Shown piece by piece: positions 29,264 to 46,162 of a stretch of DNA of 46,162 nucleotides. The translations under genes were made by a program, and so were the position numbers. Below the pieces are notes generated by a model. The model worked only from the letters and a program-made list of their open reading frames with translations. It did no database searches and had not been told where the DNA came from. How positions within the stretch are numbered: the first letter of the stretch is position 1; each line of letters begins with the position of its first letter. The stretch spans positions 34,668-80,829 of the forward strand of contig MSHD01000024.1 of NCBI GenBank assembly GCA_001941045.1, given 5' to 3'. The DNA is from Lachnospiraceae bacterium Zagget2. GTDB lineage: Bacteria > Bacillota > Clostridia > Lachnospirales > Lachnospiraceae.

Positions 29264-29803
29264 TTACGTTGCGGGAGTCTCCTCCAGAGCGGCGAGGCGT
29301 TTCCTGAGTTCCTCGTTCTCAGCAAGAGCTTTTTCTTTTGCCGCGCGCTCGGCTTCTTTTTCTGCCCGTTCAGCCTCTTTTGCCATTCGTTCAGCTTCCC
29401 TTGCCGCCTGCTCTTCCTCAACCTTCTGCTGGAGCTCTTCCACAATAAATTTCAGGGTATTATGATCCAGTGTCCGTATCATCTCCGAATACATACCTAG
29501 CACCTCCCCAGGCCTGGTACGAAGCATGGTAATCTCCTGATAAATCTCCTCCAGCCATGGATAAATCTGTATCCATGCGTCCGCGTCTGCGAGCGTTTCT
29601 GTGGCGAGAAGCGAGAGCCATGCCGTCTGTCTGTTCTGAGGTTTATGATACTGGAAATTCCGGAATACGTCAAGGGAGACGAGGCAGTATTCCGTGAATA
29701 ATGCGGGCGATTTTTTCAGAAGCTGAACAGCTTCTTCGGCTGTCCCCGGCGGCGCAGGCCACTCGACGGGACTCGCATAGCTTTGTAAATTATAGTTGGT
29801 CAT
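29264..29803 (-). pseudogene. Rpn-family PD-(D/E)XK nuclease gene with internal deletion (copy 1)
   Basis: On the minus strand an open frame of 179 codons starts MTNYNLQSYASPVEW (ATG at 29803-29801, GGAGTG box 8 bp upstream) and ends in a long charged coiled coil. It matches the intact copy at 30297-31307, except that 174 codons holding the nuclease core are missing. The join is within TATTCC at 29688-29693. The frame is kept, so a short protein of N-terminal stub, helical middle (WIQIYPWLEEIYQEI) and coiled coil could still be made. The coiled coil has extra EAERxxK units compared with the intact copy. Enzymatically dead; a dominant-negative or binding role is conceivable. Confidence 0.8.
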
Positions 29804-29858
29804 AGGTACACTCCATTTTTGATGATACTGCTCTATTTCGTGGGGAAATGAGAGGAGA

Positions 29859-29881
29859 GCGCACACTGCGCAGGTGTGCGC
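29859..29881 (-). other. Leader hairpin of Rpn-like copy 1
   Basis: GCGCACAC (29859-29866) and GTGTGCGC (29874-29881) form a perfect 8-bp stem in the untranslated leader, between promoter and start codon. It is kept unchanged in copy 2. Confidence 0.6.
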
Positions 29882-29912
29882 GGTCATAAGTCCGGCCAGA
29901 CTGGATAGGGAT

Positions 29913-29941
29913 AGTATACACGAAGAAACGGGAAGTGTCAT
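29913..29941 (-). promoter_or_regulatory. Promoter of Rpn-like copy 1 (minus strand)
   Basis: Read on the minus strand: ATGACA (29941-29936), 17-bp spacer, TATACT (29918-29913). One mismatch to each sigma-A consensus box region. Transcript runs about 105 nt before the start codon. Confidence 0.7.
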
Positions 29942-31307: not shown

Positions 31308-31490
31308 AGGTACACTCCATTTTTGATGATACTGCTCTATTTCGTGGGAAAATGAGAGGAGGGCGCACACTGCGCAGGTGTGCGCGGTCATAAGTCCGGC
31401 CGGACTGGATAGGGATAGTATACACGAAGAAACGGGAAGTGTCATCGAAGTTTACAAAATGTTCATATTTTTTGTGAGAGTTGCACAAAA
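30316..31490. repeat. Direct repeat, copy 2 (Rpn-like gene with its promoter)
   Basis: Full-length counterpart of 29293-29987, in the same orientation. It contains TATTCC twice, at 30670-30675 and 31192-31197, 522 bp apart; these are the ends of the deletion in copy 1. Confidence 0.8.
31417..31445 (-). promoter_or_regulatory. Promoter of Rpn-like copy 2 (minus strand)
   Basis: On the minus strand: ATGACA (31445-31440), 17-bp spacer, TATACT (31422-31417), identical to copy 1. The leader hairpin GCGCACAC/GTGTGCGC lies between this promoter and the start codon. Confidence 0.7.
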
Positions 31491-31517
31491 AGCTTCCATG
31501 CAAAATGCAGGCTGTGC

Positions 31518-31547
31518 TTTACAATATGGCGTATCAAAGGATATAAT
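31518..31547 (+). promoter_or_regulatory. Promoter of the UPF0158 - restriction island operon
   Basis: TTTACA (31518-31523), 18-bp spacer, TATAAT (31542-31547). It points away from the Rpn-like promoter. The spacing of the genes downstream suggests it can drive everything from 31643 to 44459. No other strong promoter or terminator was seen in between. Confidence 0.7.
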
Positions 31548-31642
31548 GGACTGGAAGGAAGTGCGGGAAAATAAGAATAAGTTCGTGCAGAATGGGCAAC
31601 TGAACATGAGTCTGCAGTTTCAAGTTCCGACAATGAGGCGAC

Positions 31643-32065
31643 ATGAGGATGAAGATAAAATTACAGCAGGTTATTGACGCTGTAGAACAGGCGGATGATA
31701 ACTGGACGGGGTTCTATGACACGCATACTGGCGAAACGGTCTGGCAGGGAGACAGGTTTTTTGATGATGATTATGGGGAAACTGCAGAACTGATCGAGAC
31801 ATCGGGAAACCGTTTCTATCGTTTTCCCACGAAGTTCGATATCCATGAATATAGTATTATGGAAGACTTCGTGGACAATTTCCCGTCAGGAGCGATACGA
31901 AATGAACTGATGAATGCGATTCATGGCAGGGGCGCATTTCGCAGGTTTAAGGATACCCTTTACCGTTACGGCATCGAGCAAAGTTGGTACGATTATCAGG
32001 CGGAGGCGTATAAGCAGATTGCGATTCGATGGTGCCGGGATGAAGGATTGGAGTATGAGGAATAG
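31643..32065 (+). CDS. UPF0158 family protein
   Basis: 140 residues (or 138 from the ATG at 31649, which has GAGG at a better distance of 10 bp). The C-terminal part, AIHGRGAFRRFKDTLYRYGIEQSWYDYQ (split here: GRGAFRRFKD then QSWYDYQ), is the UPF0158 hallmark. Function of the family is unknown; members are small cytoplasmic proteins. It is the first gene after the island promoter and ends 35 bp before the helicase gene, so it may be part of the system or simply its landing site. Confidence 0.75.
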   Translation: MRMKIKLQQVIDAVEQADDNWTGFYDTHTGETVWQGDRFFDDDYGETAELIETSGNRFYRFPTKFDIHEYSIMEDFVDNFPSGAIRNELMNAIHGRGAFRRFKDTLYRYGIEQSWYDYQAEAYKQIAIRWCRDEGLEYEE

Positions 32066-32100
32066 TAGGGCAATAAAAATGCCAGTAGGAGATCGCATCC

Positions 32101-35100
32101 GTGGAGATATTTAATAATACGACGAAGGTTGTAAAAGATGACCTTGAAAAGACGATCGGAAAGGGAAGCCGCATATCGGTTGCCGCTGCCTGTTTTTCCA
32201 TCTATGCATATAAAGAGGTGAAGACGCAGCTCGAATCCTGTGAGGAACTGCGCTTTATCTTCACGTCGCCAACCTTTGTGGCGGAGAAAACGCCGAAGGA
32301 ACGCCGAGAGTTCTATATTCCGCGTCTCAAAAGGGAAAAGAGCTTATATGGCACGGAATTTGAAGTGCGTCTGCGCAATGAGCTGAAACAGAAAGCGGTT
32401 GCCAGAGAGTGCGCCGAATGGATACGCCGGAAGGTGCGTTTTAAGTCGAACGTGACCCGAGACGGCATGAATAATTTTCTCCTTGTGGAGAATGAGGGCG
32501 AGACTTACACGTATTCACCGATGAACACCTTTACTACGGTCGATCTCGGCTGTGAACGTGGAAATAACCTGACAAATCTGGTCACACGTCTGGAAAATCC
32601 AGAAAGCACAGAATTTCTGCGTATGTTCAACGCGGTGTGGAATGATGAGGAAAAGCTGGCGGATGTGACCGAGGAGGTCATCGACATGATCTCCTCGTTC
32701 TATCAGGAAAATTCGCCGGAACTGATCTACTATATGGCGCTTTATAATATCTTCAGTGAATTTCTGGAGGATATTTCCGAGGATGTTCTGCCCAATGAGG
32801 CGACGGGCTTCAAAGATAGCATTATCTGGAAGAAGTTGTATCATTTCCAGAAAGACGCCGCCCTTGCTATCATCAACAAGCTGGAGCAGTACAATGGCTG
32901 TATTCTGGCCGACAGTGTGGGACTTGGGAAAACCTTTACGGCGCTGGCGGTAATCAAATATTACGAAGGGCGAAATAAAAATGTCCTTGTTCTCTGTCCG
33001 AAGAAGCTCTCTGAAAACTGGATGACCTATCGAGGCAACCTGATCAACAATCCGCTGGCGGAGGACAGGCTGCGTTATGATATCCTTTATCATACAGATT
33101 TGTCCAGGAATAGCGGCAGCACGGCCATCGGGCTTCCGATTGAGCTCATCAACTGGAGCAATTATGATCTTGTTGTGATAGATGAGAGCCATAACTTCCG
33201 AAATGGGAATGGAACGAACAGCAGGGGCGGCGAAAAAGAAAACCGCTATATGCGGCTGATGAATCGCATAATCCGGCCCGGGGTCAGGACAAAGGTTCTG
33301 ATGCTGTCCGCGACGCCAGTCAATAACCGCTTCTATGACCTTCGCAACCAGCTGGCGCTTGCCTACGGAGGAAATCCGGCGGAAATCAACGAGAAGCTGA
33401 ATACGAAATCAGATATTGACACCATATTCCGTCAGGCGCAGAAGGTGTATAATGCATGGTGCAGGCTGCCTGAGCCAGAGCGAACCACGCAGAATCTTTT
33501 GTCGCAGCTGGATTATGATTTCTTTGAAGTGCTGGACAGCGTGACGATTGCGCGTTCAAGGAAGCATATCCAGGCCTACTATGATACAGCGGATATTGGC
33601 ACTTTTCCAAAGCGGAATAAGCCGATATCCCTGCGCCCAAAGCTGACAAGCCGTCCGGGAGCAATCAACTACAGCGAGGTGTACGAGCTGTTATCGAAAT
33701 TACAGCTTACCATATACACGCCTACGATATACATACAGCCCAGCAAGCTTCATAAGTATCTGGATGAAAAAGAGACCGAGAACTTCCGCAAGGGCCGTGA
33801 GCTTGGCATCCAGCGGCTGATGAGCATCAATCTGCTGAAGCGGATGGAAAGCTCCGTCCATTCCTTTCTGCTGACCGTGCAGCGCATTTATGATTATCTG
33901 CATGCCACTTCCCAGACGATTGAGCAGTTTATGAAGAGCGGAACAGGCGATCTGGATGAGATGAATGATCTCTCCGAAATGTCCGATGAATTTGATTATG
34001 ATGATCAAAATACGGATTTTTTCGGCGTCGGGAAGAAAATAAAGATTGACCTGCGGGATATGGATTATATCTCATGGAAGCGGGATATAGACGGAGATCT
34101 GGAGAACCTGGAGCTTCTCATCCTGATGATAGAGGATATTACTCCTGCGTATGACTACAAGCTGAACGAACTGCTCCGCGTGATTCGCGAGAAGGAGGCT
34201 GCCCCGATCAACACCGGAAATAAGAAAATTCTGATTTTCACGGCATTTTCGGATACTGCGGAATATCTGTATGAAAATGTCAGCCGCATGGCAGGCAGCG
34301 AGCTTGGACTGAACACGGCGCTCATCACCGGTTCTGTGGATGGGAGGACAACGATTCCCGGATTCAAAGCCGATATGAACCATGTCCTCGCCAGTTTCTC
34401 CCCGCTCTCGAAGGACAGAGATGTGCTGTATCCGGGGGACAAGGCGGATATTGACATCCTGATTGCCACAGACTGTATCTCCGAAGGTCAGAACCTGCAG
34501 GACTGCGATTACTGCATCAATTACGACATTCACTGGAACCCGGTGCGAATCATTCAGCGGTTCGGACGCATCGACCGTATCGGCAGCAGGAACGCGGTGA
34601 TACAGCTTGTGAACTTTTGGCCGGATCTGGATCTGGACGAGTATATAAACCTGAAGTCGAGAGTGGAAACGCGGATGCGCATTTCTGTCATGACGTCCAC
34701 AGGAGACGATGATTTAATCAACGCGGAAGAAAAAGGGGATCTGGAATACCGCCGCAGCCAGCTAAAGAGGCTTCAGGAGGAAGTGGTGGATCTGGAGGAA
34801 ATGACCAACGGCGTTTCTATCATGGATCTGGGTCTGAACGAGTTTCGCATGGATCTGCTTGCCTACAGAAAGGAGCACGGCGATATCGATCATACGCCGT
34901 TCGGCATTCACGCGATTGTGAGAGGCGAGAAGCCGGGTGTGATATTTGTCCTGAAAAATGTGAATGAGCATATGAACATAGAGAACCAGAACCGTTTGCA
35001 CCCGTTTTATATGGTTTATATTGGCATGGACGGCGAGGCGGTTACGAACCATCTGCAGCCCAGGGATATGCTCGATCTTATGCGACTGTTGACGAAGGGA

Positions 35101-35337
35101 AAGACCACGCCGGACAAGGATTTATGTGCAAGGTTCAACAAAGCTACGGGCAATGGAAAGAACATGGGCAGGCTCTCGCAGCTTCTGGAGGATGCGATCA
35201 GGACCATCCTGGACGCCAAGGATGAGAGCGATATCGACAGCTTTTTTGGCAGTGGACAGACAAGCTTCCTCTCCGGTGGGTTTTCGGGGCTGGACGATTT
35301 CGAGCTGATCTGTTTTCTTGTGGTAAGCAGTGAGTAG
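32101..35337 (+). CDS. SF2 (SNF2-like) helicase with PLD-like N-terminal domain
   Basis: 1078 residues. About 1-200 resembles a phospholipase D-like domain (SRISVAAACFSIYAYKEV), but the usual HxK catalytic pair is not visible, so it is probably inactive. Helicase motifs follow: Walker A ADSVGLGKT (about 270-278), DESH (361-364), LSATPVNNR (about 402-410), IATDCISEGQNLQ and the arginine-finger motif IIQRFGRIDRIGS (about 817-829). SNF2-like enzymes of this build move along duplex DNA and occur in DISARM and other defence islands. Start GTG 32101 behind AGGAGA (32087-32092). Followed by DUF4391, mod and res genes. Confidence 0.85.
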   Translation: MEIFNNTTKVVKDDLEKTIGKGSRISVAAACFSIYAYKEVKTQLESCEELRFIFTSPTFVAEKTPKERREFYIPRLKREKSLYGTEFEVRLRNELKQKAVARECAEWIRRKVRFKSNVTRDGMNNFLLVENEGETYTYSPMNTFTTVDLGCERGNNLTNLVTRLENPESTEFLRMFNAVWNDEEKLADVTEEVIDMISSFYQENSPELIYYMALYNIFSEFLEDISEDVLPNEATGFKDSIIWKKLYHFQKDAALAIINKLEQYNGCILADSVGLGKTFTALAVIKYYEGRNKNVLVLCPKKLSENWMTYRGNLINNPLAEDRLRYDILYHTDLSRNSGSTAIGLPIELINWSNYDLVVIDESHNFRNGNGTNSRGGEKENRYMRLMNRIIRPGVRTKVLMLSATPVNNRFYDLRNQLALAYGGNPAEINEKLNTKSDIDTIFRQAQKVYNAWCRLPEPERTTQNLLSQLDYDFFEVLDSVTIARSRKHIQAYYDTADIGTFPKRNKPISLRPKLTSRPGAINYSEVYELLSKLQLTIYTPTIYIQPSKLHKYLDEKETENFRKGRELGIQRLMSINLLKRMESSVHSFLLTVQRIYDYLHATSQTIEQFMKSGTGDLDEMNDLSEMSDEFDYDDQNTDFFGVGKKIKIDLRDMDYISWKRDIDGDLENLELLILMIEDITPAYDYKLNELLRVIREKEAAPINTGNKKILIFTAFSDTAEYLYENVSRMAGSELGLNTALITGSVDGRTTIPGFKADMNHVLASFSPLSKDRDVLYPGDKADIDILIATDCISEGQNLQDCDYCINYDIHWNPVRIIQRFGRIDRIGSRNAVIQLVNFWPDLDLDEYINLKSRVETRMRISVMTSTGDDDLINAEEKGDLEYRRSQLKRLQEEVVDLEEMTNGVSIMDLGLNEFRMDLLAYRKEHGDIDHTPFGIHAIVRGEKPGVIFVLKNVNEHMNIENQNRLHPFYMVYIGMDGEAVTNHLQPRDMLDLMRLLTKGKTTPDKDLCARFNKATGNGKNMGRLSQLLEDAIRTILDAKDESDIDSFFGSGQTSFLSGGFSGLDDFELICFLVVSSE

Positions 35338-35380
35338 TATGCAGTGACTGACTTTTGATTTCACAGTGGGAGGATACGGG

Positions 35381-36016
35381 GTGATAGAGTTTCCAACAAC
35401 CACAGCTGTACAGAAGCGCATGCCAAAGGAGGCGTTTTACAGGCATCTGTCGCTCACGAAGGCGCTGAAAGAGAAATTTGTCACGGATGTGGACAGAATT
35501 GTGGTGGAGAACAGTCTGACGAAGGAAAATCTGAACCTGACGGCAGATTCTGAGATAAAAGAAATTCTGCTGCTGTCCATATTCCTGAAGAAGCAGGATT
35601 TTGACGGAAAGATCCTGGAAGCGATAGCCAGACAGAATCCGCACAAGCTGGTTTTCCTTATGGTTTATGAGGGAAGCAGGGAGCTCGCGCTGTATCATGG
35701 AAAGCTGTACCGGACGGGCTGGGTGGACACCGCAGAGCTTCAGCTGCAGCCGCGCGGCGTTTCTCTGGATGGGATATGGGAGTCCTTTATAGAGCAGATC
35801 GCGTTGCAAACGGAGCGGGCGGAAAATATGGACGCTCTTTCCGTGGACGAGCGCCTTGCCCTGCAGGAACAGATCGGGAAGCTGGAAAAGCTGATAGCGA
35901 AAACAGAAACTGCGGCATGGAAGGAGCAGCAGCCGAAGAAGCAGTTTGAGTTGTACACAAGGCTTCGCGGGTATAAACAGGAACTGGAGAAACTGAAAGG
36001 CGACAAAGAGGCCTAA
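35381..36016 (+). CDS. DUF4391 domain protein
   Basis: 211 residues. The N-terminus (MIEFPTTTAVQKRMPKEAFY) and the middle (LVFLMVYEGSRELALYHGKLYRTGW) fit DUF4391, a family of unknown function that is often found between a helicase and a type III-like methyltransferase gene. The C-terminal 55 residues form a likely coiled coil (EQIGKLEKLIAKTETAAWK). I chose GTG 35381, 7 bp after GGAGG; an in-frame GTG at 35366 would overlap that box. Likely an accessory or bridging subunit of the island complex (inference from place and coiled coil). Confidence 0.75.
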   Translation: MIEFPTTTAVQKRMPKEAFYRHLSLTKALKEKFVTDVDRIVVENSLTKENLNLTADSEIKEILLLSIFLKKQDFDGKILEAIARQNPHKLVFLMVYEGSRELALYHGKLYRTGWVDTAELQLQPRGVSLDGIWESFIEQIALQTERAENMDALSVDERLALQEQIGKLEKLIAKTETAAWKEQQPKKQFELYTRLRGYKQELEKLKGDKEA

Positions 36017-36045
36017 ATGTAGGATAAAATTGGAGGAAGAGGAAA

Positions 36046-38037
36046 ATGGAGAAACTAAAGATGCACACGCCGAATCTGGCGGATGAGAATTACAAAAAGC
36101 TGGCGGCGCTGTTTCCCAATGCGGTGACAGAGACTCTGGACGCCGAGGGGGGGGTAATACGGGCTATTGACGCGGATGTCCTGCGTCAGGAGATTTCTGC
36201 TGCGGTCGTGGAGGGATCGCAGGAGCGCTATCAGTTTACCTGGCCGGATAAGAAAAAGTCTGTAGTGCTTGCCAATCAACCGATCAAAAAGACGCTGCGC
36301 CTAGACAGGGAAAAATCGGTTGGGCGGGATGGGACGCCTGGCAGTATCGACACGGAGAACATTTACATCGAGGGCGATAACCTTGATGCGCTGAAGCTTT
36401 TGCAGGAGACTTACCTTGGGAAAGTGAAGATGATATATATTGATCCACCTTATAACACGGGATCGGATGCGTTTGTGTACGATGATGATAAGAAAATCAG
36501 TGGGAGGGAATTTTCAGAGCGAAGCTGTCAAAGGGATGAGGATGGTAATTTGCTGTTTGATATGAGAATCAATAATGAGTCAAATGGGCGTTTTCACACG
36601 GACTGGCTTAATATGCTCTATCCAAGATTACGATTGGCGAAAACTCTTCTTTCGGACGATGGGGTTATTTTTATAAGTATTGATGATAATGAGTATGAAA
36701 ATTTAAAGAAAATATGTGATGAAGTATTTGGGGCAGCTAATTATTTGAACACATTTGCATGGGTTTCCAATATTACAGGACGCCAAATTTCTGGTAGAGG
36801 TGCGGCAAAGACTTGGGAAAGCATTTTAGCTTATTGTAAGTGTATCAATGATTCATTTAGCCTTAACGTGGATGTTTCTTTTGCCAAGGAAAAAATGCCA
36901 GATACTTATAAGGGGTTTGAAAAAGATATTCGCAAAGATGATAGAGGCGCATTTGCCGTAGGAGATACCCTTTATAACCACAATCGTAAGTTTAACGAAG
37001 AAACAAGACCTAATCTTGTATTTTCTATTTATTATAATCCGGTTACAGAAGAAATTGCAACTGGTGATATTGGGGAAGTGAGAGGAGGGTGGATAGAAAT
37101 TCCCCCGCATACGAATGGTGATGGATCTCATAAGTATCATGCATGGAGATGGTCAAAGCAAAAAATAGCGAATGAAAGTTATGATTTGATTGTTCTTCCT
37201 ACGAATCGTGGAGGTTATGAAATATATACAAGAATTAGAGAGTTTAATAAAACTCTTTTAAAAGATTGTATCACCAATATTTCCAATGGAGATTCTGAGG
37301 TTCAGAAATTATTTGAACGCAAGAAATATTTTGATTATCCTAAATCTGTGGATTTACTTTACACTTTTGCTTCTTCAATCAAAGATAAGGATGCGCTAAT
37401 TCTGGACTTCTTCTCCGGCTCTGCCACTACCGCCCACGCGGTCATGCAGCTCAATGCCGAAGACGGCGGCCACCGCCAGTTCATCATGGTGCAGCTTCCG
37501 GAAGTCTGTGATGAAAAGAGCGAGGCCTACAAGGCGGGCTATCGGAATATCTGCGAGATCGGGGAGGAGCGTATCCGCCGCGCGGGCAGGAAAATCAGGG
37601 AAGAGTCGCCTTTAACAACCGACTCTCTGGATGTCGGCTTCCGCGTGTTCCGTGTGGATGAATCCAACATGAAGGATGTCTATTACACCCCGGATCAATA
37701 TCAGCAGGAGCAGATAGAGTTGTTCGCTGACAATATTAAAGAGGATAGAACGCCGGAGGATTTACTGATTCAGGTGATGCTTGATCTCGGTATTCTCCTC
37801 TCCTCCGAGATAGAGGAGGCGGAAATCGCCGGAAAGCGTGTCTTTTCTGTCGCTGGTGGCTATCTGATCGCCTGCTTTGATTCTGAGGTCACGGAGGAGA
37901 CGGTCACGGAGATTGCGAAGAGGCATCCGTTTTATGCCGTATTCCGGGACAGCGGCATGGCAAGCGACAGCGTGATGGCGAATTTTGAGCAGATTTTTGA
38001 AACCTACAGTCCGAAGACGCAAAGGAAGGTGCTGTGA
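36046..38037 (+). CDS. mod: Type III-like site-specific DNA methyltransferase (Mod), beta class
   Basis: 663 residues. Motif IV DPPYNTG (D133-) comes before motif I DFFSGSATTAHA (about 454-465), the order of beta-class N6-adenine or N4-cytosine methyltransferases; type III Mod proteins are of this class and make m6A. Residues about 145-450 hold the target recognition region. It is much richer in A+T than the two flanks. A G8 tract (36147-36154) lies in codons 34-36: with 7 or 9 G the frame stops at once or within eight codons. In the given sequence the frame is ON. The stop overlaps the res start by one base. Confidence 0.92.
   Translation: MEKLKMHTPNLADENYKKLAALFPNAVTETLDAEGGVIRAIDADVLRQEISAAVVEGSQERYQFTWPDKKKSVVLANQPIKKTLRLDREKSVGRDGTPGSIDTENIYIEGDNLDALKLLQETYLGKVKMIYIDPPYNTGSDAFVYDDDKKISGREFSERSCQRDEDGNLLFDMRINNESNGRFHTDWLNMLYPRLRLAKTLLSDDGVIFISIDDNEYENLKKICDEVFGAANYLNTFAWVSNITGRQISGRGAAKTWESILAYCKCINDSFSLNVDVSFAKEKMPDTYKGFEKDIRKDDRGAFAVGDTLYNHNRKFNEETRPNLVFSIYYNPVTEEIATGDIGEVRGGWIEIPPHTNGDGSHKYHAWRWSKQKIANESYDLIVLPTNRGGYEIYTRIREFNKTLLKDCITNISNGDSEVQKLFERKKYFDYPKSVDLLYTFASSIKDKDALILDFFSGSATTAHAVMQLNAEDGGHRQFIMVQLPEVCDEKSEAYKAGYRNICEIGEERIRRAGRKIREESPLTTDSLDVGFRVFRVDESNMKDVYYTPDQYQQEQIELFADNIKEDRTPEDLLIQVMLDLGILLSSEIEEAEIAGKRVFSVAGGYLIACFDSEVTEETVTEIAKRHPFYAVFRDSGMASDSVMANFEQIFETYSPKTQRKVL
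36147..36154 (+). repeat. G8 homopolymer in the mod coding sequence
   Basis: Eight consecutive G residues span the end of Glu34 and Gly35-Gly36 and reach into the next codon. With one G less the next codon is TAA; with one more the frame ends at TGA within eight codons. Such tracts switch type III mod genes on and off in several pathogens by slipped-strand mispairing. Confidence 0.85.
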
Positions 38038-41000
38038 TGGTGGATATGAAGTTTAAATATACGATCCAGCCCTACCAGACCGAGGCGGTGGAGAGCGTGG
38101 TCGGCGTGTTTGCTGGTCAGCCCTACAATGATCGCTTCACCTATCGTCGGGATGTGGAGATTGAACGCGATGTAACTAACTGGAAGGTTTCCGATGAGGA
38201 ATTATACATGGGCTTTGCCAATGCCCGAGTGCAGCTGGATTCCGGCCAGCTCCTTGCGAACATTCACAGGATTCAGGCGCGGAACAATATCAATCTGTCT
38301 ACTGCCATTACAACGGCTGGCCTGGGCGTCTGCTCTCTTGACGTAGAGATGGAAACCGGAACCGGCAAAACATACGTGTATATCAAGACCATATTTGAGC
38401 TGAACAAGCAGTACGGATGGAGCAAATATATCGTTGTTGTGCCAAGCGTCGCCATTCGCGAAGGGGTGCGGAAAAGCTTTGAAACGATGGAAGAGCACTT
38501 CATGGAGTATTACGGCAGGAAGGCGCGCTTCTTCGTATACGATTCCAAAAATCTGGCGGAGATTGATAATTTCAGCCAGAGCGCGGAGATCCAGGTGATG
38601 ATCATCAATATTCAGGCGTTTTTCGCCCGCGGGAAAGACGCGCGCCGTATTCGCACGGAATTAGACGAGTTTGGCACCCGAAGACCGATGGATGTGATCC
38701 GGGCAAATCATCCGATCATGATTCTGGATGAGCCGCAGAAAATGGGAGGGACCGCAACGCAGGAGAGCTTGAAGGAGTTTGGCCCGCTTTTCTGCCTGAA
38801 CTATTCCGCAACGCACAAGCAGCACCATGATCTGGTCTATGTGCTGGATGCGCTGGACGCTTATAATAAGAGGCTGGTAAAGCGGATCGAAGTCAAAGGC
38901 TTCGATATCAGGAATCTGCGCGGGACAGACAAGTATCTCTTCCTGGAAAGCATTGTGATCTCCCCGAAGAAACCGCCGATGGCCCGCCTTGAATTTGAAA
39001 TCGGACATAATGAGGATATTAAGCGTGTGACGCGCGTGCTCGCGGTAGATGACGATCTTTATGCCCTGTCAAAGAATATGGCGCAGTACCGCGGGTATCG
39101 GATCAGCGAGATTGACCCGATCAGAGGGACGGTGGCCTTTACGAATGGTCAAATCATCCGCGCGGGAGAAGTGGTCGGCGATGTATCGGAATCTGATCTT
39201 CGCCGGGTGCAGATTCGGGAAACCATCCGTTCCCATTTTGAAAAGGAAAAGGAACTCTTTGGACGCGGCATCAAGACGCTTTCTCTGTTTTTTATAGACG
39301 AAGTGGCTAAATATCGTAAGTATGACGAGGAGGGAAACGAGGTCAACTCCGAGTACGGAGACATTTTCGAGCAGGAATATACAGATATTCTGAATGAGTA
39401 CCTTACGATCTTTAATACGCCTTATGAGCAGTATCTTCGCAGCATCGATGTGCATAAGACCCATGCGGGGTATTTCAGCATTGACAAAAGGGGGCGCAAG
39501 GTTGACAGCACCACAAAGCGCGGCAGTGATGAGAGCGACGACATTTCCGCCTATGATCTGATTCTGAAGGATAAGGAACGCCTTTTGTCCTTCGACAATC
39601 CTGTGCGCTTTATCTTCTCCCATTCCGCTCTTCGCGAGGGCTGGGACAACCCGAATGTCTTCCAAATCTGTACTTTGAAGCATGGCGGCAGCTCGCCGGT
39701 GCAGAAGCGCCAGGAGGTTGGCCGTGGTCTGCGGCTTTGTGTCAATCAGAACGGCGATCGCATGGATGTGGATGTGCTCGGCAGTCAGGTGCAGCAGATC
39801 AACCAGCTGACAGTGATCGCGTCCGACGGATATAAGGAATTTGTTTCCGATCTGCAGCGAGGCATCCGGGAGGATCTGTATGAGCGCCCGGTCATAGCGA
39901 CGCCGGATTACTTTATTGGAAAGACGGTTATGATCGGCGGCAATGCCATGACCGTTTCGGACAGGCAGGGTCGGGATATTTACCGCTATCTCCTGCAAAA
40001 TGCATACGTCGATGAAGATGACCACATTTCTGACAGCTATCGGGTCGATCTGGCGAATGGTACGCTGGCGCCGGTGCTGGAGAGCTGCAGGGATATATCC
40101 GATGGCGTCCACGCGCTGATACAGAGTATTTTCGATGAGCATTCCCTTGACGACATGATAAAGGACGGCCATGAGACGAAAATTCAGGAAAACGCGCTGA
40201 ACGACAACTTTTATAAGAAGGAATTTCAGACGCTCTGGAACTATATCAACCATAAGTATGCCTACACGGTAGAATTTGACAGCGAGGAGTTGATCCGCGC
40301 CGCGATAGACCATCTGGATGAGAAGATGTTTGTCGCGCAGCTTCAATATACGGTAACGACCGGTATGCAGGAAGAGAATATTAAGGCGGAAAAACTGAAA
40401 GCCGATGAGATGTTTATCGCAGAGCGGAGCCGCACCTTTACACTGAATCGTCCGCAAGGCAGCCTGGTGCCGTATGACCTGGTCGGTCAGATCGCCCGGG
40501 GTGCAAAGCTGACCAGGCGTTCCGCGGCAAGGATTCTCGCCGGTATCCGACCTTCTACCTTTGCGATGTTCAGGAAGAATCCAGAGGAGTTCATCAAAAA
40601 GGCGATTCGGCTGATCAACGAGAAGAAAGCCACCGTGATTGTGGAGCAGATCAGTTATAACCAGACGGACGGCACTTATGACAGCGGTATCTTCACCGCG
40701 GAGAAGAACAGTGATTTCTCCCGGGCGTACCGCGCGAAGAAGAATGTACAGGATTATGTTTTTACGGACGGTTATGCCCGGGATGGTCAAAGCGTGGAGC
40801 GAAAGTTCGCGGAGAACATGGACCTGGCGGATGAAGTCTGCGTATATGCCAAGTTGCCGAGGGGGTTCTCGATACCGACTCCCGTGGGCAATTACTCTCC
40901 GGACTGGGCCATTGCCTTCAATAAGGATACGGTGAAGCACATTTTCTTCATTGCCGAAACAAAGGGAACCATGGAGACGCTGAAGCTAAAGCCCATCGAA

Positions 41001-41114
41001 CAGGCGAAAATCAAGTGCGCGAATAAGCTGTTCAACGAACTGTCTACGGCGGATGTAGTCTATCATGACGTGAAGACCTGGCAGGATCTGATGAATATTA
41101 TGGAGAATCTGTAG
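38037..41114 (+). CDS. res: Type III-like restriction subunit Res (SF2 helicase-endonuclease)
   Basis: 1025 residues. Helicase motifs: METGTGKTY (105-113), VPSVAIREGV, DEPQ (231-234), NYSATHKQ, and REGWDNPNVFQICTLKHG plus QEVGRGLRL near 535-570. The C-terminus holds a PD-(D/E)XK nuclease site: PDWAI (D956) and AETKGT (E974, K976). This is the build of type III Res, which translocates or slides along DNA and cuts near unmethylated sites together with Mod. I chose ATG 38037, 7 bp after AAGGAAGG; a GTG at 38034 is the alternative. All key motifs are intact. Overlaps mod by one base (TGATG). Confidence 0.92.
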   Translation: MVDMKFKYTIQPYQTEAVESVVGVFAGQPYNDRFTYRRDVEIERDVTNWKVSDEELYMGFANARVQLDSGQLLANIHRIQARNNINLSTAITTAGLGVCSLDVEMETGTGKTYVYIKTIFELNKQYGWSKYIVVVPSVAIREGVRKSFETMEEHFMEYYGRKARFFVYDSKNLAEIDNFSQSAEIQVMIINIQAFFARGKDARRIRTELDEFGTRRPMDVIRANHPIMILDEPQKMGGTATQESLKEFGPLFCLNYSATHKQHHDLVYVLDALDAYNKRLVKRIEVKGFDIRNLRGTDKYLFLESIVISPKKPPMARLEFEIGHNEDIKRVTRVLAVDDDLYALSKNMAQYRGYRISEIDPIRGTVAFTNGQIIRAGEVVGDVSESDLRRVQIRETIRSHFEKEKELFGRGIKTLSLFFIDEVAKYRKYDEEGNEVNSEYGDIFEQEYTDILNEYLTIFNTPYEQYLRSIDVHKTHAGYFSIDKRGRKVDSTTKRGSDESDDISAYDLILKDKERLLSFDNPVRFIFSHSALREGWDNPNVFQICTLKHGGSSPVQKRQEVGRGLRLCVNQNGDRMDVDVLGSQVQQINQLTVIASDGYKEFVSDLQRGIREDLYERPVIATPDYFIGKTVMIGGNAMTVSDRQGRDIYRYLLQNAYVDEDDHISDSYRVDLANGTLAPVLESCRDISDGVHALIQSIFDEHSLDDMIKDGHETKIQENALNDNFYKKEFQTLWNYINHKYAYTVEFDSEELIRAAIDHLDEKMFVAQLQYTVTTGMQEENIKAEKLKADEMFIAERSRTFTLNRPQGSLVPYDLVGQIARGAKLTRRSAARILAGIRPSTFAMFRKNPEEFIKKAIRLINEKKATVIVEQISYNQTDGTYDSGIFTAEKNSDFSRAYRAKKNVQDYVFTDGYARDGQSVERKFAENMDLADEVCVYAKLPRGFSIPTPVGNYSPDWAIAFNKDTVKHIFFIAETKGTMETLKLKPIEQAKIKCANKLFNELSTADVVYHDVKTWQDLMNIMENL

Positions 41115-41135
41115 AGGGTGCAGGGGGAAGCTGTT

Positions 41136-44100
41136 ATGTGGCACGCGATGGAGACAGGTAAAATTCTGTCTGATATGACAAAGAAATACGGCTATGATAT
41201 TTTACAGGACGGTGAAAGATGCGCGGTACTGTGCGAAGACATGCTGACGATGTACGACCAGGAGAAAAAGGTTTTCACAATGTTGTTTCGGGCTGGATTC
41301 GGGGAAAGCTTAAAGGGGGTTCCTTATTGCCGGGAGAGCGAAATCAAAATCGGTATGTTTTCAGTCGAAAAATTTCTCAAAAGTCAAGGGATTGTCGCGG
41401 AAACTGCTAAAAATGTTGTCGATGTAATTATTCAGGCATTTGTGGAGGAGAACGTTCTGGTCGGAGACAGCTATTTCAGACCGATCATCCGTAAAAACTT
41501 TAATGATGTTCATTTTAAACTGAAAATTCCTGTCTATATGGAATATGACGATCACCTGGAGGTCACATCCGAATTTATATACAGAGCGACTGGAGAATTG
41601 GTGGATTCTGTTTTTGAAAAATGCGAAGTGACAGATGCTTTTAATGGAGTCTATTCTTCTGCAATGGATTATCGCTTGTTTCGGGCAGAGGAAATGATGG
41701 TAAAGTTTTCTACAGATATACCAACGCCTGAGAAGAAATTTTGGCTGAAGAATTCGAAGATAGAGTTGACATTCCTTTGTAGCAATCGGAAGAGAATTGC
41801 GATTACCTATTTCTTCTCCAATTCAAAGGCATGGACGTTGCAGTCGATTTCTATTTACAGGATGACGAATGTCGAACATAAAAAAATGCAGGACATATGC
41901 GAACTCCTGAAAAACAGAGCCAGAAAAACAGACATCGGATTGGGTAGCAGTGATTCCGTCGGAAATCTGACATATGATGCTGCTTCGGAGACTACGTCTT
42001 TTAGCTCAACGAATCTTGCCGAGTATTCAGAAGCCCTGAAAAATGAAATTCACTATTTGAAACAGGGAAGAGGAAAAAAATACAGGGTCGTCAATGGCGA
42101 AAGAATTCATAAAGACAATAAGGGAGCTTACACTTATACTTTTGAAATGGAGACCGAGCTTCACCTGCCAGATGATGCGCCGGTAACAATTGAGACAAGC
42201 GCGGGTTCACGGGCTGCAGGTTCAGTACTTGTCTGCGATGATTTCCAGATCATGCTTATATTAGACCGAGATTTGAGCGAACGTGTGAGGACCGCGCATA
42301 TTACAGTGGAACCCTGGAAATTACTGGGAGGTCTGGACAAGAAAATGAGCGCACTGAATCTGAATGACCATAAGCTTGCCGTAAGATTGATTCAAAAAGG
42401 GCCAAAGCTGGGCAGACAATCTGATATCAAAAAAATTCCCAAGGGTCAGCAAGCGGTAATAAACAAGCTGAAAAAAGAAGATATTGTGGTGGTCTGGGGC
42501 TCTCCGGGTACGGGAAAGACTTATACAATGGCGTCGATTGCATTGAATTGTTTAAAGCGCGGAAAATCTGTTTTGATCGTTTCACATAGTAATGTCTCTG
42601 TGGATGGTGTGATCAAACAGGTATTAAATATACCAGATCCTGTTTTGGAATCTTATCTGCAGAGGGGCAGCATCCTTCGTTATGGATATGTCCGTGATGC
42701 GGAACTGGCAAATAATGAATATGCAACTTCTTTTTCTTATGCCCTTTCAAAGAATCCAACGCTCAGAATGGAACTTGACGCTCTGAGTGCCAGAAGAGAT
42801 GAGATGAAGGCCAAAAACCAGACAAAGACAGATGCTTATCATTCAGTCGAAAAAAGGATTAAGGAAATTCGGGAGGCAATCAGAAAAGAAGAGAGGAGAT
42901 ATGCGGAGAACGCCGGGATTCTTGGAACAACAATTTCAAAAGCTACCGTGGATGGTATGTTTGATGACCAGCAATATGATCTCGTGATGTTTGACGAGGT
43001 TTCGATGGCCTACGTTCCACAGATTATAGTAGCTGCCATGCTGGCCAGAGAGAAGTTCATGTGTGTTGGAGATTTCAGACAGCTATCTCCTATTGCACAG
43101 AGTCCCAAAGCGGAACAGACTTTGCGGAGAGATATTTTTTCCTATCTCCGGATTACAGATAATCTGGGAAATATGTATGGGCACCCCTGGCTCGTTATGC
43201 TGAATGAGCAGCGGCGTATGCATCCGGATATCTCAGAATTTCCCAATCGATTCGTATACAAGGAACTTTTGAAAAATCATGAGTCCGTATATCATGGTCG
43301 GGATTCCATTGTGGCGGCAACTCCTTCGCCGGGAGATGCCATGAACCTGATTGATTTAACAGGTACTTACTGTGCGGCTTGTAAAAACAGCGATAATTCG
43401 AGATTCAACATCTTAAGCGCCATTATTTCTTTCGCGACGGCTATTAAGGCAGATCAGGACGACACGGCGGAATCGGTAGGTATTATTACGCCTTATGCGG
43501 CACAGACACGTTTGATACGTGCCATGCTGCGGGATTACTATAAGTCTGGAACAGGGAAAGTCAGCTGTGCAACGGTACATCAGTTTCAGGGTTCAGAATC
43601 AGATGTTCTGATTTTTGATGCGGTAGAAAGCTATCCAACCCACAGGGTGGGATACATCTTCAGCAAGGATATGGATGCCGTTGTCAGATTGACGAATGTC
43701 GCCATCACTCGTGCAAGAGGTAAGTTCATCACAGTGGCAAACATGCGATTCTGGGAGGATAGATTCGCAGGGCAAAAACATATTTATTATCGACTGGTGA
43801 ATTACATATTGGATCATCATACTGAAATAAACCATGCTGTGAAACATAATCTGGAACCATATATTGAATCTATAAATCCAGACAGGATGATTCAGATCTT
43901 TAGAGATGAGACGACTGCGATTGCTCAGTTTGCAAAAGATATGCAGCAAGCCGGAGGTAAAGTGCTGGTATCGATCCCTGACGGAGATCTCCGGGAAACG
44001 GAAAAACAGATCCTGGATATGATAGATGCGGCCTACTGTCGTGGGGTTACGATTCTTATGAAATCTAATGGGTACCGGGAACTGCCGGATTCCTGGAAAG

Positions 44101-44459
44101 AGTATTGTTCCGGTACGGATAACGCGGTATTTCCCTTGATTGTGATTGATGACAAGATTGCCTGGTATGGCCTTCCGACATCCAGATTACGCTTTCAGGT
44201 GGATAAATATACAGTGCAGAATACGGTTGTCCCTGTCATAGCTCGAATCAATGGTGTCAATACAGTTGAGATGATCAAGACTCTGACGAATCTCGAAATG
44301 ATAGAGATAGAGAAGGGGAAAGGGAAAAATACGAGGCCGTTGTTGCAGAAAAAAGGAGCCTCTGTACATCCTCCGGCACGCAATGATGAAGAGGGGGGAG
44401 ATTATTCCTTCGGGACTTGCAGGATTTGTAGAAATAAAGGAATTCTGTCCAAAATGTAA
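41136..44459 (+). CDS. UPF1/DNA2-like SF1 helicase with degenerate PLD-like C-terminus, frameshifted at the end
   Basis: 1107 residues. The N-terminal 420 residues are unassigned. SF1B motifs follow: GSPGTGKT (455-462), DEVS (620-623), GDFRQLSPIA, NEQRRMHP, ATVHQFQGSESD and NVAITRARGKF. Residues about 915-1060 look like a PLD-like module: IVIDDKIAWYGLP fits the second half of a PLD motif, but the HxK is absent. The last 20 residues (GDYSFGTCRICRN) read in a different frame from the zinc ribbon that follows; the switch is at a G6 tract (44393-44398). Start ATG 41136 is 8 bp after AGGGGGA; GTG 41118 lacks a spaced box. More A+T-rich than res, so possibly of separate origin. Confidence 0.85.
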   Translation: MWHAMETGKILSDMTKKYGYDILQDGERCAVLCEDMLTMYDQEKKVFTMLFRAGFGESLKGVPYCRESEIKIGMFSVEKFLKSQGIVAETAKNVVDVIIQAFVEENVLVGDSYFRPIIRKNFNDVHFKLKIPVYMEYDDHLEVTSEFIYRATGELVDSVFEKCEVTDAFNGVYSSAMDYRLFRAEEMMVKFSTDIPTPEKKFWLKNSKIELTFLCSNRKRIAITYFFSNSKAWTLQSISIYRMTNVEHKKMQDICELLKNRARKTDIGLGSSDSVGNLTYDAASETTSFSSTNLAEYSEALKNEIHYLKQGRGKKYRVVNGERIHKDNKGAYTYTFEMETELHLPDDAPVTIETSAGSRAAGSVLVCDDFQIMLILDRDLSERVRTAHITVEPWKLLGGLDKKMSALNLNDHKLAVRLIQKGPKLGRQSDIKKIPKGQQAVINKLKKEDIVVVWGSPGTGKTYTMASIALNCLKRGKSVLIVSHSNVSVDGVIKQVLNIPDPVLESYLQRGSILRYGYVRDAELANNEYATSFSYALSKNPTLRMELDALSARRDEMKAKNQTKTDAYHSVEKRIKEIREAIRKEERRYAENAGILGTTISKATVDGMFDDQQYDLVMFDEVSMAYVPQIIVAAMLAREKFMCVGDFRQLSPIAQSPKAEQTLRRDIFSYLRITDNLGNMYGHPWLVMLNEQRRMHPDISEFPNRFVYKELLKNHESVYHGRDSIVAATPSPGDAMNLIDLTGTYCAACKNSDNSRFNILSAIISFATAIKADQDDTAESVGIITPYAAQTRLIRAMLRDYYKSGTGKVSCATVHQFQGSESDVLIFDAVESYPTHRVGYIFSKDMDAVVRLTNVAITRARGKFITVANMRFWEDRFAGQKHIYYRLVNYILDHHTEINHAVKHNLEPYIESINPDRMIQIFRDETTAIAQFAKDMQQAGGKVLVSIPDGDLRETEKQILDMIDAAYCRGVTILMKSNGYRELPDSWKEYCSGTDNAVFPLIVIDDKIAWYGLPTSRLRFQVDKYTVQNTVVPVIARINGVNTVEMIKTLTNLEMIEIEKGKGKNTRPLLQKKGASVHPPARNDEEGGDYSFGTCRICRNKGILSKM

Positions 44460-44688
44460 GAGCCATATGATTCTTACCAGGAATGCAAAGGGGACTGCAT
44501 ATCTAAAGTGTTCCAGAAAGAATTGCAGCTATCAGAAGTTCCTGGAAAAGGATTTCATGGACTGGTATATTTCTGCGAAAAATGTATCGTGCCCGAGGGA
44601 TGGAGGGCTTGTTTTTGGAGCTGTCGGGAAGTATGGTCCTTACATTTGTTGTGACAGAGGACATTTCCTGAAACCATGGGAGATATAA
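44383..44688 (+). CDS. Zinc-ribbon segment, probably the out-of-frame C-terminus of the upstream helicase
   Basis: The frame overlaps the end of the helicase gene by 77 bp. Its useful part, after the G6 tract, reads EIIPSGLAGFVEIKEFCPKC and carries two cysteine pairs (CPKC and CSRKNC), then CPRDGG and GKYGPYICC, a topoisomerase-like zinc ribbon. No ribosome binding site precedes ATG 44383 or 44386. Loss of one G from the G6 tract would fuse helicase and zinc ribbon in one frame. It is therefore best seen as the helicase tail, cut off by a 1-bp indel or a slippage switch. Confidence 0.75.
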   Translation: MMKRGEIIPSGLAGFVEIKEFCPKCKSHMILTRNAKGTAYLKCSRKNCSYQKFLEKDFMDWYISAKNVSCPRDGGLVFGAVGKYGPYICCDRGHFLKPWEI

Positions 44689-44712
44689 GCGGGATACTTT
44701 CATCTTTTTTCG

Positions 44713-44880
44713 ATGTGTGATATATTGATTGAAACAATCAATGTAATTGAATATACTGAACTGGTTGTCGTAATGCAAAAAGCAGAGATTGATGGGACGA
44801 AGAGTGGAGCTGCTGTTGATAAGCAGATTGCATTATTGGAAGACGATGATATTGTGGAATTGGATGAAACAGATGAGTGA
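44713..44880 (+). CDS. Small acidic hypothetical protein
   Basis: 55 codons: MCDILIETINVIEYTELV at the start and LLEDDDIVELDETDE at the end. No recognisable family. There is no ribosome binding site before ATG 44713, and it is in frame with the zinc-ribbon segment after its stop. The acidic tail and clean end before the next gene hint at a real or recently decayed gene. An 8-bp inverted repeat ATTGATTG/CAATCAAT (44724-44742) lies in its first codons. Confidence 0.35.
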   Translation: MCDILIETINVIEYTELVVVMQKAEIDGTKSGAAVDKQIALLEDDDIVELDETDE

Positions 44881-44907
44881 TTCTTTAAAGCGGTTGGAGG
44901 TTGAAGC

Positions 44908-46162
44908 ATGACTCGTGAAAAACTGGAATCAATGCTGCGTGAGGGCGAAGGCTTCACGGTAGAATTTAAGGAATGTACAAACAGTCTGAGCAACAGCGTG
45001 TTTGAGACAGTCTGCTCATTTTCCAATCGTTATGGCGGCTATATACTGCTGGGCGTTAAGGAAATTGACGGTCAGGGCGTTGTTACTGGCGTCAATCCCA
45101 GATGCGTGGCCGGTATGAAGAAGAATTTTGTAAACATGCTGAATAACGCGCAAAAGATACACCCTTCCCTTTATCTGAATCTGGAAGAAATGGAGTATGA
45201 TGGGAAAGTCGTTCTTTGGGTATATGTGCCGGTCAGCTCACAGATAGAATTCTGTGACCGGAAGATCTTTGATCGTAATGAGGATGCAGATCAGGATGTT
45301 TCCACGTCCGCGGATCTGGTTGCCAATATTTCCAGTCGGAAATCTTCAACCTATATTGAGCGAAAGACCTTCCCTTATGCGGATATGGATGATTTGTGCG
45401 TGGATCTGATCGGGAAGGCGAGGCAGATGGCGGTCAATCGGGATAAGAATCATCCATGGAAGGATATGGACGATGCAGATTTGTTAAAAAGTGCCGGTTT
45501 GTATGAAAAAAATCGAGTGACCGGAGAAAAGGGATTTAATATGGCCTGTATTCTGCTCTTCGGAAAACCGGAGGTGATCCAATCCTGTGTGCCTGGTTAT
45601 AAGACGGATGCCATATATCGCGTGAAGAATATGGATCGCTACGATGACAGGCTGATCGTAGAAAACAATCTGATTGAAAGCTATGACATTTTGATGCAGT
45701 TTATTTCCAAGCATACGGATGACAAATTTTTCCTGGTTGATAATGTCAATATGAGTGTGAGAAGCGCAATCGCAAGGGAGGTTGTTAGCAATCTCTTGGT
45801 GCACCGCGATTTTGGCAGCGCTTTTCCGGCTAAGCTGATTATCGAGAAGGACAGGATATATACGGAAAACTGGAATCGGACACAGCGCATCGGAAGACTG
45901 GAACTGGAAGACTTCACGCCGTACCCGAAAAATCCGATTCTGGCCAAGTTTTTTGTCAATATAGGCTATGCTGATGGTTTAGGCTCGGGCGTCAGAAATC
46001 TGTACAGATTCACGAAAATATATTCCGGCGGAGAACCTGACCTGGAAGAAGGCGAGGTCTTCCGACTGACGATCCCCTTGACTGCAAGTGGACGGGTAGA
46101 TTCGGCGATCGAAGCGGAGGATTCGGCGATTGAGACTGAAAAAGTGCCAGTAACCACCGAAA
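44908..46162 (+). CDS. AlbA_2/Schlafen-type ATP-binding protein, 3' end outside the window
   Basis: 418 codons to the window edge, no stop reached. The N-terminus (VEFKECTNSLSNSVFETVCSF, then GGYILLGVKE) is an AlbA_2 domain (about 1-130). The C-terminal part (REVVSNLLVHRDF about residue 291, then NPILAKFF and YADGLGSGVRNL) is the HATPase_c_4-like domain common in RecG-like putative DNA-binding regulators. Such proteins are frequent in defence islands; their activity is not well known. ATG 44908 follows TGGAGG (44895-44900). The last visible codons contain a repeated heptapeptide DSAIExE. Confidence 0.85.
   Translation, partial: MTREKLESMLREGEGFTVEFKECTNSLSNSVFETVCSFSNRYGGYILLGVKEIDGQGVVTGVNPRCVAGMKKNFVNMLNNAQKIHPSLYLNLEEMEYDGKVVLWVYVPVSSQIEFCDRKIFDRNEDADQDVSTSADLVANISSRKSSTYIERKTFPYADMDDLCVDLIGKARQMAVNRDKNHPWKDMDDADLLKSAGLYEKNRVTGEKGFNMACILLFGKPEVIQSCVPGYKTDAIYRVKNMDRYDDRLIVENNLIESYDILMQFISKHTDDKFFLVDNVNMSVRSAIAREVVSNLLVHRDFGSAFPAKLIIEKDRIYTENWNRTQRIGRLELEDFTPYPKNPILAKFFVNIGYADGLGSGVRNLYRFTKIYSGGEPDLEEGEVFRLTIPLTASGRVDSAIEAEDSAIETEKVPVTTE

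Follow-up and report, generated by a model that had tools for sequence, protein, structure and literature searches.

A widespread four-gene cassette adds an SNF2-type motor lacking HKD residues and a DUF4391 protein to a type III restriction-modification pair

Type III restriction-modification (R-M) systems usually consist of two genes only, mod and res. In the window analysed here, the whole stretch of 46,162 nucleotides from Lachnospiraceae bacterium Zagget2 (contig MSHD01000024.1, positions 34,668 to 80,829), such a pair lies within a longer run of closely spaced genes, and the question is which of these genes belong to the system. An earlier note on this DNA had proposed one composite defence system extending from a UPF0158 gene to a superfamily 1 (SF1) helicase gene. 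This is borne out for the middle part: an SNF2-type helicase, which carries a PLD-like domain without the catalytic HKD residues, and a DUF4391 protein belong with Mod and Res and are co-inherited with them as a unit, whereas the SF1 helicase and UPF0158 are not conserved with this unit. The four core genes of the cassette in the window are the following.

32101..35337, + strand: core gene 1, an SNF2-type superfamily 2 (SF2) DNA motor of 1078 amino acids (aa) (Pfam, PADLOC)
35366..36016, + strand: core gene 2, a DUF4391 protein of 216 aa (Pfam, 2.2e-47)
36046..38037, + strand: core gene 3, Mod, a type III N6-adenine methyltransferase of 663 aa (N6_N4_Mtase, MTase_III)
38034..41114, + strand: core gene 4, Res, a type III restriction subunit of 1026 aa (ResIII, RE_endonuc, REase_III)

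The conservation of this arrangement was assessed in three sets of loci (199 in total, numbered with the prefix L). For set 1, DUF4391 (PF14335) was searched in 200 family genomes, of which 10 gave a match (8 above the cut-off), and in 398 phylum genomes, of which 34 did (all above the cut-off), the window genome being included in both; the set holds 45 DUF4391 loci besides that of the window, and two family matches below the cut-off were left out. Sets 2 and 3 come from scans with an SNF2 alignment and comprise 80 loci of named organisms, taken as the best from 559 confirmed candidates, and 74 loci from viral contigs. Gene order was read from six-frame open reading frames (ORFs) and purpose-built profiles, with Pfam being used for the divergent DUF4391 of set 1. 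All four core genes are present in 35/45, 62/80 and 45/74 loci, respectively, and in each of these 142 loci, 137 of which are distinct (five pairs represent an identical or nearly identical locus), the order is SNF2, DUF4391, Mod, Res on a single strand. The other 57 loci are without one or more core genes; 44 of them run off the end of the sequenced stretch and 13 are exceptions. Locus L037, in which DUF4391 starts at the contig start, is outside the four-gene count. The exceptions include three loci with a decayed SNF2-DUF4391 pair (L033, L068 and L069), one in which DUF4391 is detected by tblastn and not as an ORF (L125), three with a Mod fragment and no Res found (L143, L156 and L166), four members of a sister clade (L206, L209, L211 and L223), one with SNF2 followed by Res and no Mod found in the stretch (L212), and one with a piece of Res ahead of SNF2 and no Mod called (L224). 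The check proposed in the earlier note, for retention of the gene order across unrelated genomes, is therefore strongly positive for SNF2-DUF4391-Mod-Res (142/199 loci): four-gene loci, many from metagenome bins and some from isolates, occur in Bacillota, Bacteroidota, Pseudomonadota, Actinomycetota, Verrucomicrobiota, Spirochaetota, Synergistota, Campylobacterota, Gastranaerophilales and Ozemobacter.

The constant order is accompanied by correlated divergence of the four proteins. In a Mantel comparison of the 106 loci in which each of the four genes is single and intact, the distance correlations are 0.85 for SNF2-Res, 0.82 for DUF4391-Res, 0.81 for Mod-Res, 0.80 for SNF2-DUF4391, and 0.71 for both SNF2-Mod and DUF4391-Mod, the highest value of 200 permutations being 0.17. 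Without near-copies (94 loci), these values are 0.85, 0.81, 0.81, 0.79, 0.70 and 0.69 in the same order, with SNF2-Mod preceding DUF4391-Mod. SNF2 and DUF4391 track Res as closely as Mod does. On the basis of the constant order and the correlated distances, a chance neighbourhood of the core genes was rejected.

The cassette is also found on plasmids and in a phage. The SNF2 protein matches 102 plasmid records, in 93 of which the match covers 80% or more of the protein, and these matches include 14 Escherichia, 20 Listeria and 18 Enterococcus records. Ten plasmid or phage stretches were examined, and the core order is present in eight: seven plasmids chosen via an SNF2 or DUF4391 match (from E. 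coli, Listeria, Lactococcus, Raoultella, Photobacterium, Mycolicibacterium and the archaeon Methanomethylovorans) and one Erysipelothrix phage. In all eight cassettes, DUF4391 is confirmed by profile and the HKD residues are lost. The two stretches without the core order are the 5.1 kb mod-res record of phage P1 and a Clostridioides phage (L264). In one E. coli plasmid version (L237, record NZ_CP029688), the four genes occupy locus positions 8647-17675. Relatives of a 9 kb E. coli cassette were found in 10 of 5426 E. coli genomes, with 80% or more of the cassette covered in nine. In the Erysipelothrix phage phi1605, the DUF4391 gene of the cassette (L265 5251-5964) is annotated as a methyl-accepting chemotaxis protein. 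In several plasmid copies from Gram-negative bacteria (L238 11096-12001; Citrobacter, Enterobacter, Sphingobium), the gene next to SNF2 encodes a WYL-domain regulator, which is a possible regulator of the cassette.

The mod and res genes are adjacent and on the same strand, as expected of a type III system, and their products carry the corresponding motifs. Mod has DPPY (residues 133-136) ahead of DFFSG (454-458), which is the beta-class order, and matches MTase_III with 674 bits; the DPPY columns are conserved in 39-40 of 40 aligned rows. Res combines an SF2 motor with a C-terminal PD-(D/E)XK endonuclease (P956 D957 ... E975-T-K977) and matches REase_III with 959 bits, and D957, E975 and K977 are kept in 36/36 aligned rows. 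The best PDB matches are the Mod and Res subunits of EcoP15I (4zcf_A, 1.5e-60, and 4zcf_C, 9.8e-71). As judged from these sequence features the cassette qualifies as type III R-M, and Res would be expected to cleave DNA. It shares with EcoP15I and EcoP1I homologous, adjacent Mod and Res with the same catalytic motifs, but differs from the two-gene mod-res of phage P1 by the addition of SNF2 and DUF4391. Because two further co-inherited genes are present, the cassette is a variant of type III that retains its membership. EcoP15I-like Mod-Res enzymes act on pairs of asymmetric unmodified sites, with the helicase-like domains of Res triggering diffusion along the DNA, and type III systems are described as Mod plus Res, for example in PMC10059834. 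LlaFI of Lactococcus lactis is listed as a type III system with Mg2+ and ATP as cofactors (PMC3874151), and an R-M system on the Listeria plasmids pJ0161/pLM80 is called LlaFI-related (PMC2932693). One Listeria and one Lactococcus plasmid record carry the four-gene order, and LlaFI-like systems may be cassette members that were described as Mod-Res only.

The SNF2 protein consists of a PLD-like N-terminal domain (approximately residues 1-200) and a motor with intact Walker A, DESH and QRxGRxDR motifs, and is matched over its whole length by the PADLOC model C3a139 'HKD+Snf2' (401 bits, residues 2-1075). The domains of the PLD-like/SNF2-like helicase that the earlier note had described are thus present, but the catalytic residues H-x-K ... 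GSxN are absent from the PLD-like part, and on this ground an active PLD nuclease in this protein was rejected. Among 176 aligned SNF2 rows (164 at 98.5% identity), the three motor motifs are nearly always kept (Walker A in 175/176), while H-x-K ... GSxN is intact in only 6, with a stray H-x-K in 3 more. In the 148 rows with Mod or Res downstream, HKD is lost in 145, a stray H-x-K is present in 2 and the site is intact in 1 (L040); among 23 other rows, for which the neighbours are cut off or unseen, it is lost in 22 and stray in 1. Both the 176 and the 145 include one row, L136:1120-4293, that represents a different SNF2 protein (22% identical). Since HKD is lost and D957, E975 and K977 are kept, the recognisable cutting site of the cassette lies in Res and not in the SNF2 protein.

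The C-terminal part of the DUF4391 protein is coiled-coil-like, and it is via this part that a PDB profile search retrieved three chains, namely two designed coiled coils and one receptor fusion. A PD-(D/E)XK-like pattern was sought in DUF4391, and the best conserved columns (P10, K21, E187 and Q189) show none. PADLOC 2023 matches the other three core proteins separately and has no match to the DUF4391 protein of the window. In the open papers searched, DUF4391 is mentioned in one only, as an entry in a domain table for bacterial host strains. In Pseudoxanthomonas (L143 13279-15438), DUF4391 is fused to approximately 490 further residues, and large ORFs separate it from a Mod fragment.

The HKD site is intact in all five members of a sister set (L204, L206, L209, L211 and L223). 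In L206, L209, L211 and L223, the gene for a related SNF2 helicase (38-40% identity) is followed by a gene for an Eco57I-type methylase of 1200-1560 aa (in L206 after one 277-aa ORF), and in L204 the SNF2 gene is followed by a 441-aa ORF that is truncated where the contig ends; a gene for an SMC-like ATPase comes next in L206, L211 and L223. At approximately residues 105-228 of the ORFs in L206, L211, L223 and L204, Pfam gives DUF4391 with 19-23 bits, below the cut-off of 29.9. It was not detected by Pfam in the methylase of L209, and the purpose-built DUF4391 profile matches all five sister ORFs weakly. These type IIG-like systems (L206, L209, L211 and L223) thus share with the cassette a related SNF2 helicase and a weak DUF4391-like stretch, but the Eco57I-type methylase replaces Mod-Res and HKD is intact. 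Because the five SNF2 rows form a single clade in a quick SNF2 tree (Shimodaira-Hasegawa-like approximate likelihood ratio test, 100), they count as one case.

Taking motifs, gene order and co-inheritance as the guide, we give an even chance to the cassette being an expanded four-gene type III system, with DUF4391 as the piece that docks the nuclease-dead SNF2 motor on Mod-Res. Mod would methylate a single strand of its asymmetric site and act together with Res in recognising foreign DNA that is unmodified, and Res would cut with its own PD-(D/E)XK domain, as is established for EcoP15I-like enzymes and suggested here by the motifs. The SNF2 protein would act as an ATP-driven motor on double-stranded DNA that has lost the ability to cut, and would be docked by DUF4391 on the methylase complex. 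DUF4391 is proposed as the docking piece because, if the match in the sister set is true, it can be fused to a DNA methylase. A second, directional motor of this kind may help Mod-Res in locating or comparing unmodified sites or in acting on them, for instance on sites that are single, wrongly oriented or covered by protein, or DNA states that diffusion handles badly.

Several observations weigh against this proposal. The DUF4391-methylase fusion is suggested by matches below the cut-off (19-23 versus 29.9 bits). The co-variation of the four proteins is equally expected from mere co-transfer, and does not separate co-function from it. In four loci (L033, L068, L069 and L243), Mod-Res persist without an intact pair. 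L068 and L243 hold an N-terminal piece of SNF2 followed by a C-terminal piece of DUF4391, L069 several pieces of both genes, and L033 a C-terminal piece of DUF4391 only, while Res is full length in all four and Mod in three, being split in L068; the Res of L243 is nearly identical to that of the complete locus L040. SNF2 and DUF4391 are therefore lost together, a point in favour of the proposal, and Mod-Res can stay. Conversely, L143, L156 and L166 retain SNF2-DUF4391 with a Mod fragment and no Res found; as the pair is intact in these loci despite a broken Mod, it is not evidently lethal without methylation.

The view from the Res side adds further exceptions. A Res tree was built from 45 of the 106 four-gene rows and 13 others, with L245 and L264 outside the tree. 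On one deep branch, the phage P1 Res groups with two Res that lack an SNF2 partner, and 45/45 four-gene Res lie on the opposite side. Rows labelled 'other' on the four-gene side are the contig-truncated L247, L250 and L253-L255, the actually four-gene L265, the decayed L243, and as true exceptions L244 and L248, which have a different SNF2 helicase upstream, and L252, with Res before Mod. Because of these rows, the label of association with the pair requires 9 changes on the tree, and the association is thus not a clean one-clade trait. Mod-Res assigned to the same side of the tree and without the pair are found in L245, L252 and L264, the last being the Clostridioides phage pCD1602_4 (L264 9007-13931), in which Mod and Res match their profiles well and no SNF2 or DUF4391 is present in 24.9 kb. 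In L244 and L248, Res is nearly identical, the different SNF2-like helicase lies upstream and a gene of 273-292 aa stands beside Mod, which is possibly another motor-type III combination. In a separate sample, PF19778 was matched in 48/299 phylum genomes, overlapping those of the DUF4391 sample, with 43 places of at least 70 bits. By hand count, 23 of these show the SNF2-DUF4391 pair either whole or as a part or remnant, L037 with its DUF4391 at the start of the contig being included, which is in favour of the proposal; 6 are without the pair (L244, L245, L248, L252, L256 and L257); 14 are outside the count, 10 lying at contig ends, 3 not retrieved and L251 ambiguous.

A different division of labour, to which we would assign a minor but real share of probability, is that SNF2-DUF4391 forms a separate, non-cutting BREX-like arm that reads the same Mod methylation and blocks phage DNA replication or packaging, with Res as the cutting arm. 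The SNF2 ATPase motifs are intact in a protein without a nuclease site, the four natural deletions take SNF2 and DUF4391 together, Mod-Res without the pair exist, and so do HKD-SNF2 systems with an N6-methylase and without Res, both in the sister clade and among the type-2 BREX-related systems as described in PMC12839542. This arrangement is harder to reconcile with a joint inheritance that is equally tight for Res and for Mod, and with the rarity of SNF2-DUF4391 accompanied by a broken Mod and no Res (3 loci, two in viral contigs).

Restriction has to be kept under control in R-M systems, and SNF2 motors are able to remove bound proteins. It is conceivable on this general basis, though improbable, that SNF2-DUF4391 is a safety or loading factor that clears Res from host DNA or delays restriction until the host is methylated, and the two genes do stand first in the operon. 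However, Mod and Res are full length in L033, L069 and L243 despite the deleted pair (in L068, Mod is split), and related Mod-Res exist without the pair; this counts against a safety factor because an untamed Res, if active there, would be dangerous. Even less probable is that SNF2-DUF4391 is a relic of an older HKD-SNF2 system hitch-hiking in an operon that collects cargo. The loss of HKD, the settling of other genes in the same operon and the four deletions that keep Mod-Res would fit, but the motor is strongly conserved over phyla, as seen in Walker A above, and most loci keep both genes.

The remaining alternative is the full composite of the earlier note, in which the SF1 helicase and UPF0158 would belong to one and the same system. 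The features concerned, together with others next to the cassette, are given below.

31643..32065, + strand: UPF0158 gene, preceding the cassette (Pfam)
41118..44459, + strand: SF1 helicase (AAA_11/AAA_12) with a PLD-like tail without HKD, a passenger (Pfam, PADLOC)
44383..44688, + strand: zinc-ribbon end of the SF1 gene in another frame (a single ORF in L140, L229 and L230)
44908..46162, + strand: SLFN_AlbA_2 + HATPase_c_4 protein, a possible passenger that exits the window (Pfam)
31518..31547, + strand: predicted promoter-like site, TTTACA-18-TATAAT, 11/12 consensus (motif scan)

The ORF check confirmed the coordinates and the + strand given for the genes of the operon, the protein identities hold under Pfam and PADLOC profile searches, and the spacing from UPF0158 to the zinc-ribbon ORF (35, 28, 29, -4, 3 and -77 bp) agrees with the gaps below 45 bp or overlaps that had been noted; a further 219 bp separate the AlbA_2 gene. 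The SF1 gene was found at E <= 1e-40 in 3/200 family genomes, including that of the window, and in the other two (L229 and L230, stretches of less than 6 kb) no Mod-Res gene is present within the 0.9-1.5 kb flanking the SF1 relative. A close relative (41% identical) occurs in 1/199 loci, L140, where it belongs to the same island but not to the cassette, its distance from SNF2 being 4.4 kb on the upstream side. Weaker matches (23-32%) were seen close to the cassette in L049, L055 and L061, and L026 has an unrelated SF1-type helicase after Res. No UPF0158 relative was found by BLAST in the neighbour loci. With relatives beside the cassette being rare or absent, the SF1 helicase and UPF0158 were rejected as core genes, and the refuting condition named in the earlier note, rare proximity to mod-res, applies to SF1 but not to SNF2 and DUF4391, which usually stand beside mod-res.

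The PLD-like and zinc-ribbon tail that had been described for the SF1 helicase was recovered, but with HKD lost and the zinc ribbon in a separate frame. Helicase, PLD-like tail and zinc ribbon form one ORF in L140, L229 and L230 but two overlapping frames in the window; because the three relatives have a continuous ORF, the window copy is frame-shifted, or misassembled, near 44340-44688. The SF1 protein gives strong partial matches to MkoA (1.5e-51) and MkoC (3.3e-33) of Mokosh, models that come with no cut-off, and has a PLD-like tail. Mokosh type II has a catalytic PLD (HKD) tail, whereas HKD is absent from the window protein and its three relatives (4/4), which in addition have a zinc-ribbon end; the window gene is thus a separate, Mokosh-like gene that is probably broken here, unless the assembly is in error. 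As both PLD-like domains of the window, in the SNF2 and the SF1 protein, are without HKD residues, the 'DNA-end or branched-DNA handling modules' proposed for the composite are weakened as well. Despite the short gaps in the window, a single system that includes the SF1 helicase and UPF0158 is thus hardly credible, with one 41% SF1 relative outside the cassette in 199 loci, weaker ones in three, two more without Mod-Res nearby, a frame-shifted SF1 gene and no UPF0158 relative.

The 'one good promoter' of the earlier note corresponds to the 11/12 site upstream of UPF0158, but this is weak evidence, because 29 such sites were observed in 31300-45000 versus 19.7 +/- 3.7 expected. On the - strand, 29264-29941 and 30297-31445 are near-copies of one gene, the longer of which matches a PDDEXK_2 transposase, while the other looks internally shortened and is without a Pfam match. 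Beyond the window end (L034 13723-19090), three long ORFs without a Pfam match (838, 615 and 368 aa) lie on alternating strands. Elsewhere in the genome (L035, contig C65:14100-34000), a second type III-like Mod of 636 aa (30% identical) is followed by an 884-aa ORF that is not called Res by blastp, and no SNF2-DUF4391 match was found at this locus.

Among known defence systems, DISARM shares an SNF2-type helicase with the cassette, although the NCBIfam DrmD model gives only 136 bits versus a cut-off of 610. DISARM is marked by drmA and drmB, neither of which was found in the operon; the only trace is a partial DrmA match (66 bits) within the SNF2 helicase, with no DUF1998 match. The BREX markers PglZ, BrxC and DUF499 are not among the matches listed for eight window proteins, and the SNF2 protein partially matches the BrxHI helicase model (82 bits). 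The PADLOC matches considered for the SNF2 protein are the best 25 of 45 families. On the markers tested on window proteins, identity with DISARM or BREX was rejected, in line with the earlier note, as was the single-gene PLD helicase (NF042964, 111 bits versus a cut-off of 1100). The type-2 BREX-related (BR) systems combine an HKD + Swi2/Snf2 helicase, an N6-methylase and a small DUF protein, and have a DUF499 ATPase, DUF3780 and an HKD nuclease described as the effector (PMC12839542). The window differs from these in having Res, DUF4391 and a lost HKD, and no DUF499 match. No description of the four-gene set was found in the open-access literature searched.

In other loci, the gaps between the core genes often hold further genes. 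An ORF of at least 120 aa is present between DUF4391 and Mod in 54/142 loci, between Mod and Res in 46/142 and between SNF2 and DUF4391 in 12/142. Of these ORFs, 131 are on the operon strand and 6 on the opposite one, and 200/243 of the surrounding gaps are at most 60 bp. The 69 ORFs between DUF4391 and Mod represent 63 Pfam families, each in at most 4 ORFs and including SLFN_AlbA_2 (4/69), TIR, SIR2, HerA, OLD-like TOPRIM, UvrD and Fic; they match the PADLOC models HerA, SIR2, SoFic and GajA (among the matches listed, 25 of 266 families). The 50 ORFs between Mod and Res include RhuM (9), AlbA_2 (7), YhcG (4), Fic (4) and Abi_C (2). Individually scanned gap ORFs include AbiJ_NTD4, trypsin-like and KilA-N proteins, and 5/20 of those scanned one by one are without a Pfam family match. 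In L064, SieB shares its ORF with the terminal part of a broken DUF4391, and downstream of Res, other loci carry an McrB-like AAA_5 gene with EVE or a DUF2130 + AAA_13 pair. The gaps in the window (28, 29 and -4 bp) carry no cargo, the SF1 helicase following Res, and the AlbA_2 gene further downstream is perhaps a passenger of the cargo type. In a purely descriptive sense, the gaps between the core genes are thus spots where other defence genes often settle. More tentatively, the cassette can be read more broadly as a distinct, widespread class of type III systems that took over an older HKD-SNF2 restriction motor, the nuclease of which was lost on joining Mod-Res while the ATP-driven motor was kept for directional translocation coupled by DUF4391, with the operon serving as a mobile rack that swaps toxin, abortive-infection and restriction genes in its gaps.

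For the type III family, the extent of the association is of consequence. Among the Res loci with a readable upstream side in the phylum sample, 23/29 carry the pair, a part or a remnant of it, and if the pair matters for restriction, the Mod-plus-Res picture fits only part of the family. What a second motor contributes can be tested directly with the help of the dead PLD domain, the sister clade with its active HKD site, the natural deletions and the E. coli plasmid versions, and new defence genes may be sought in the gaps of the operon.

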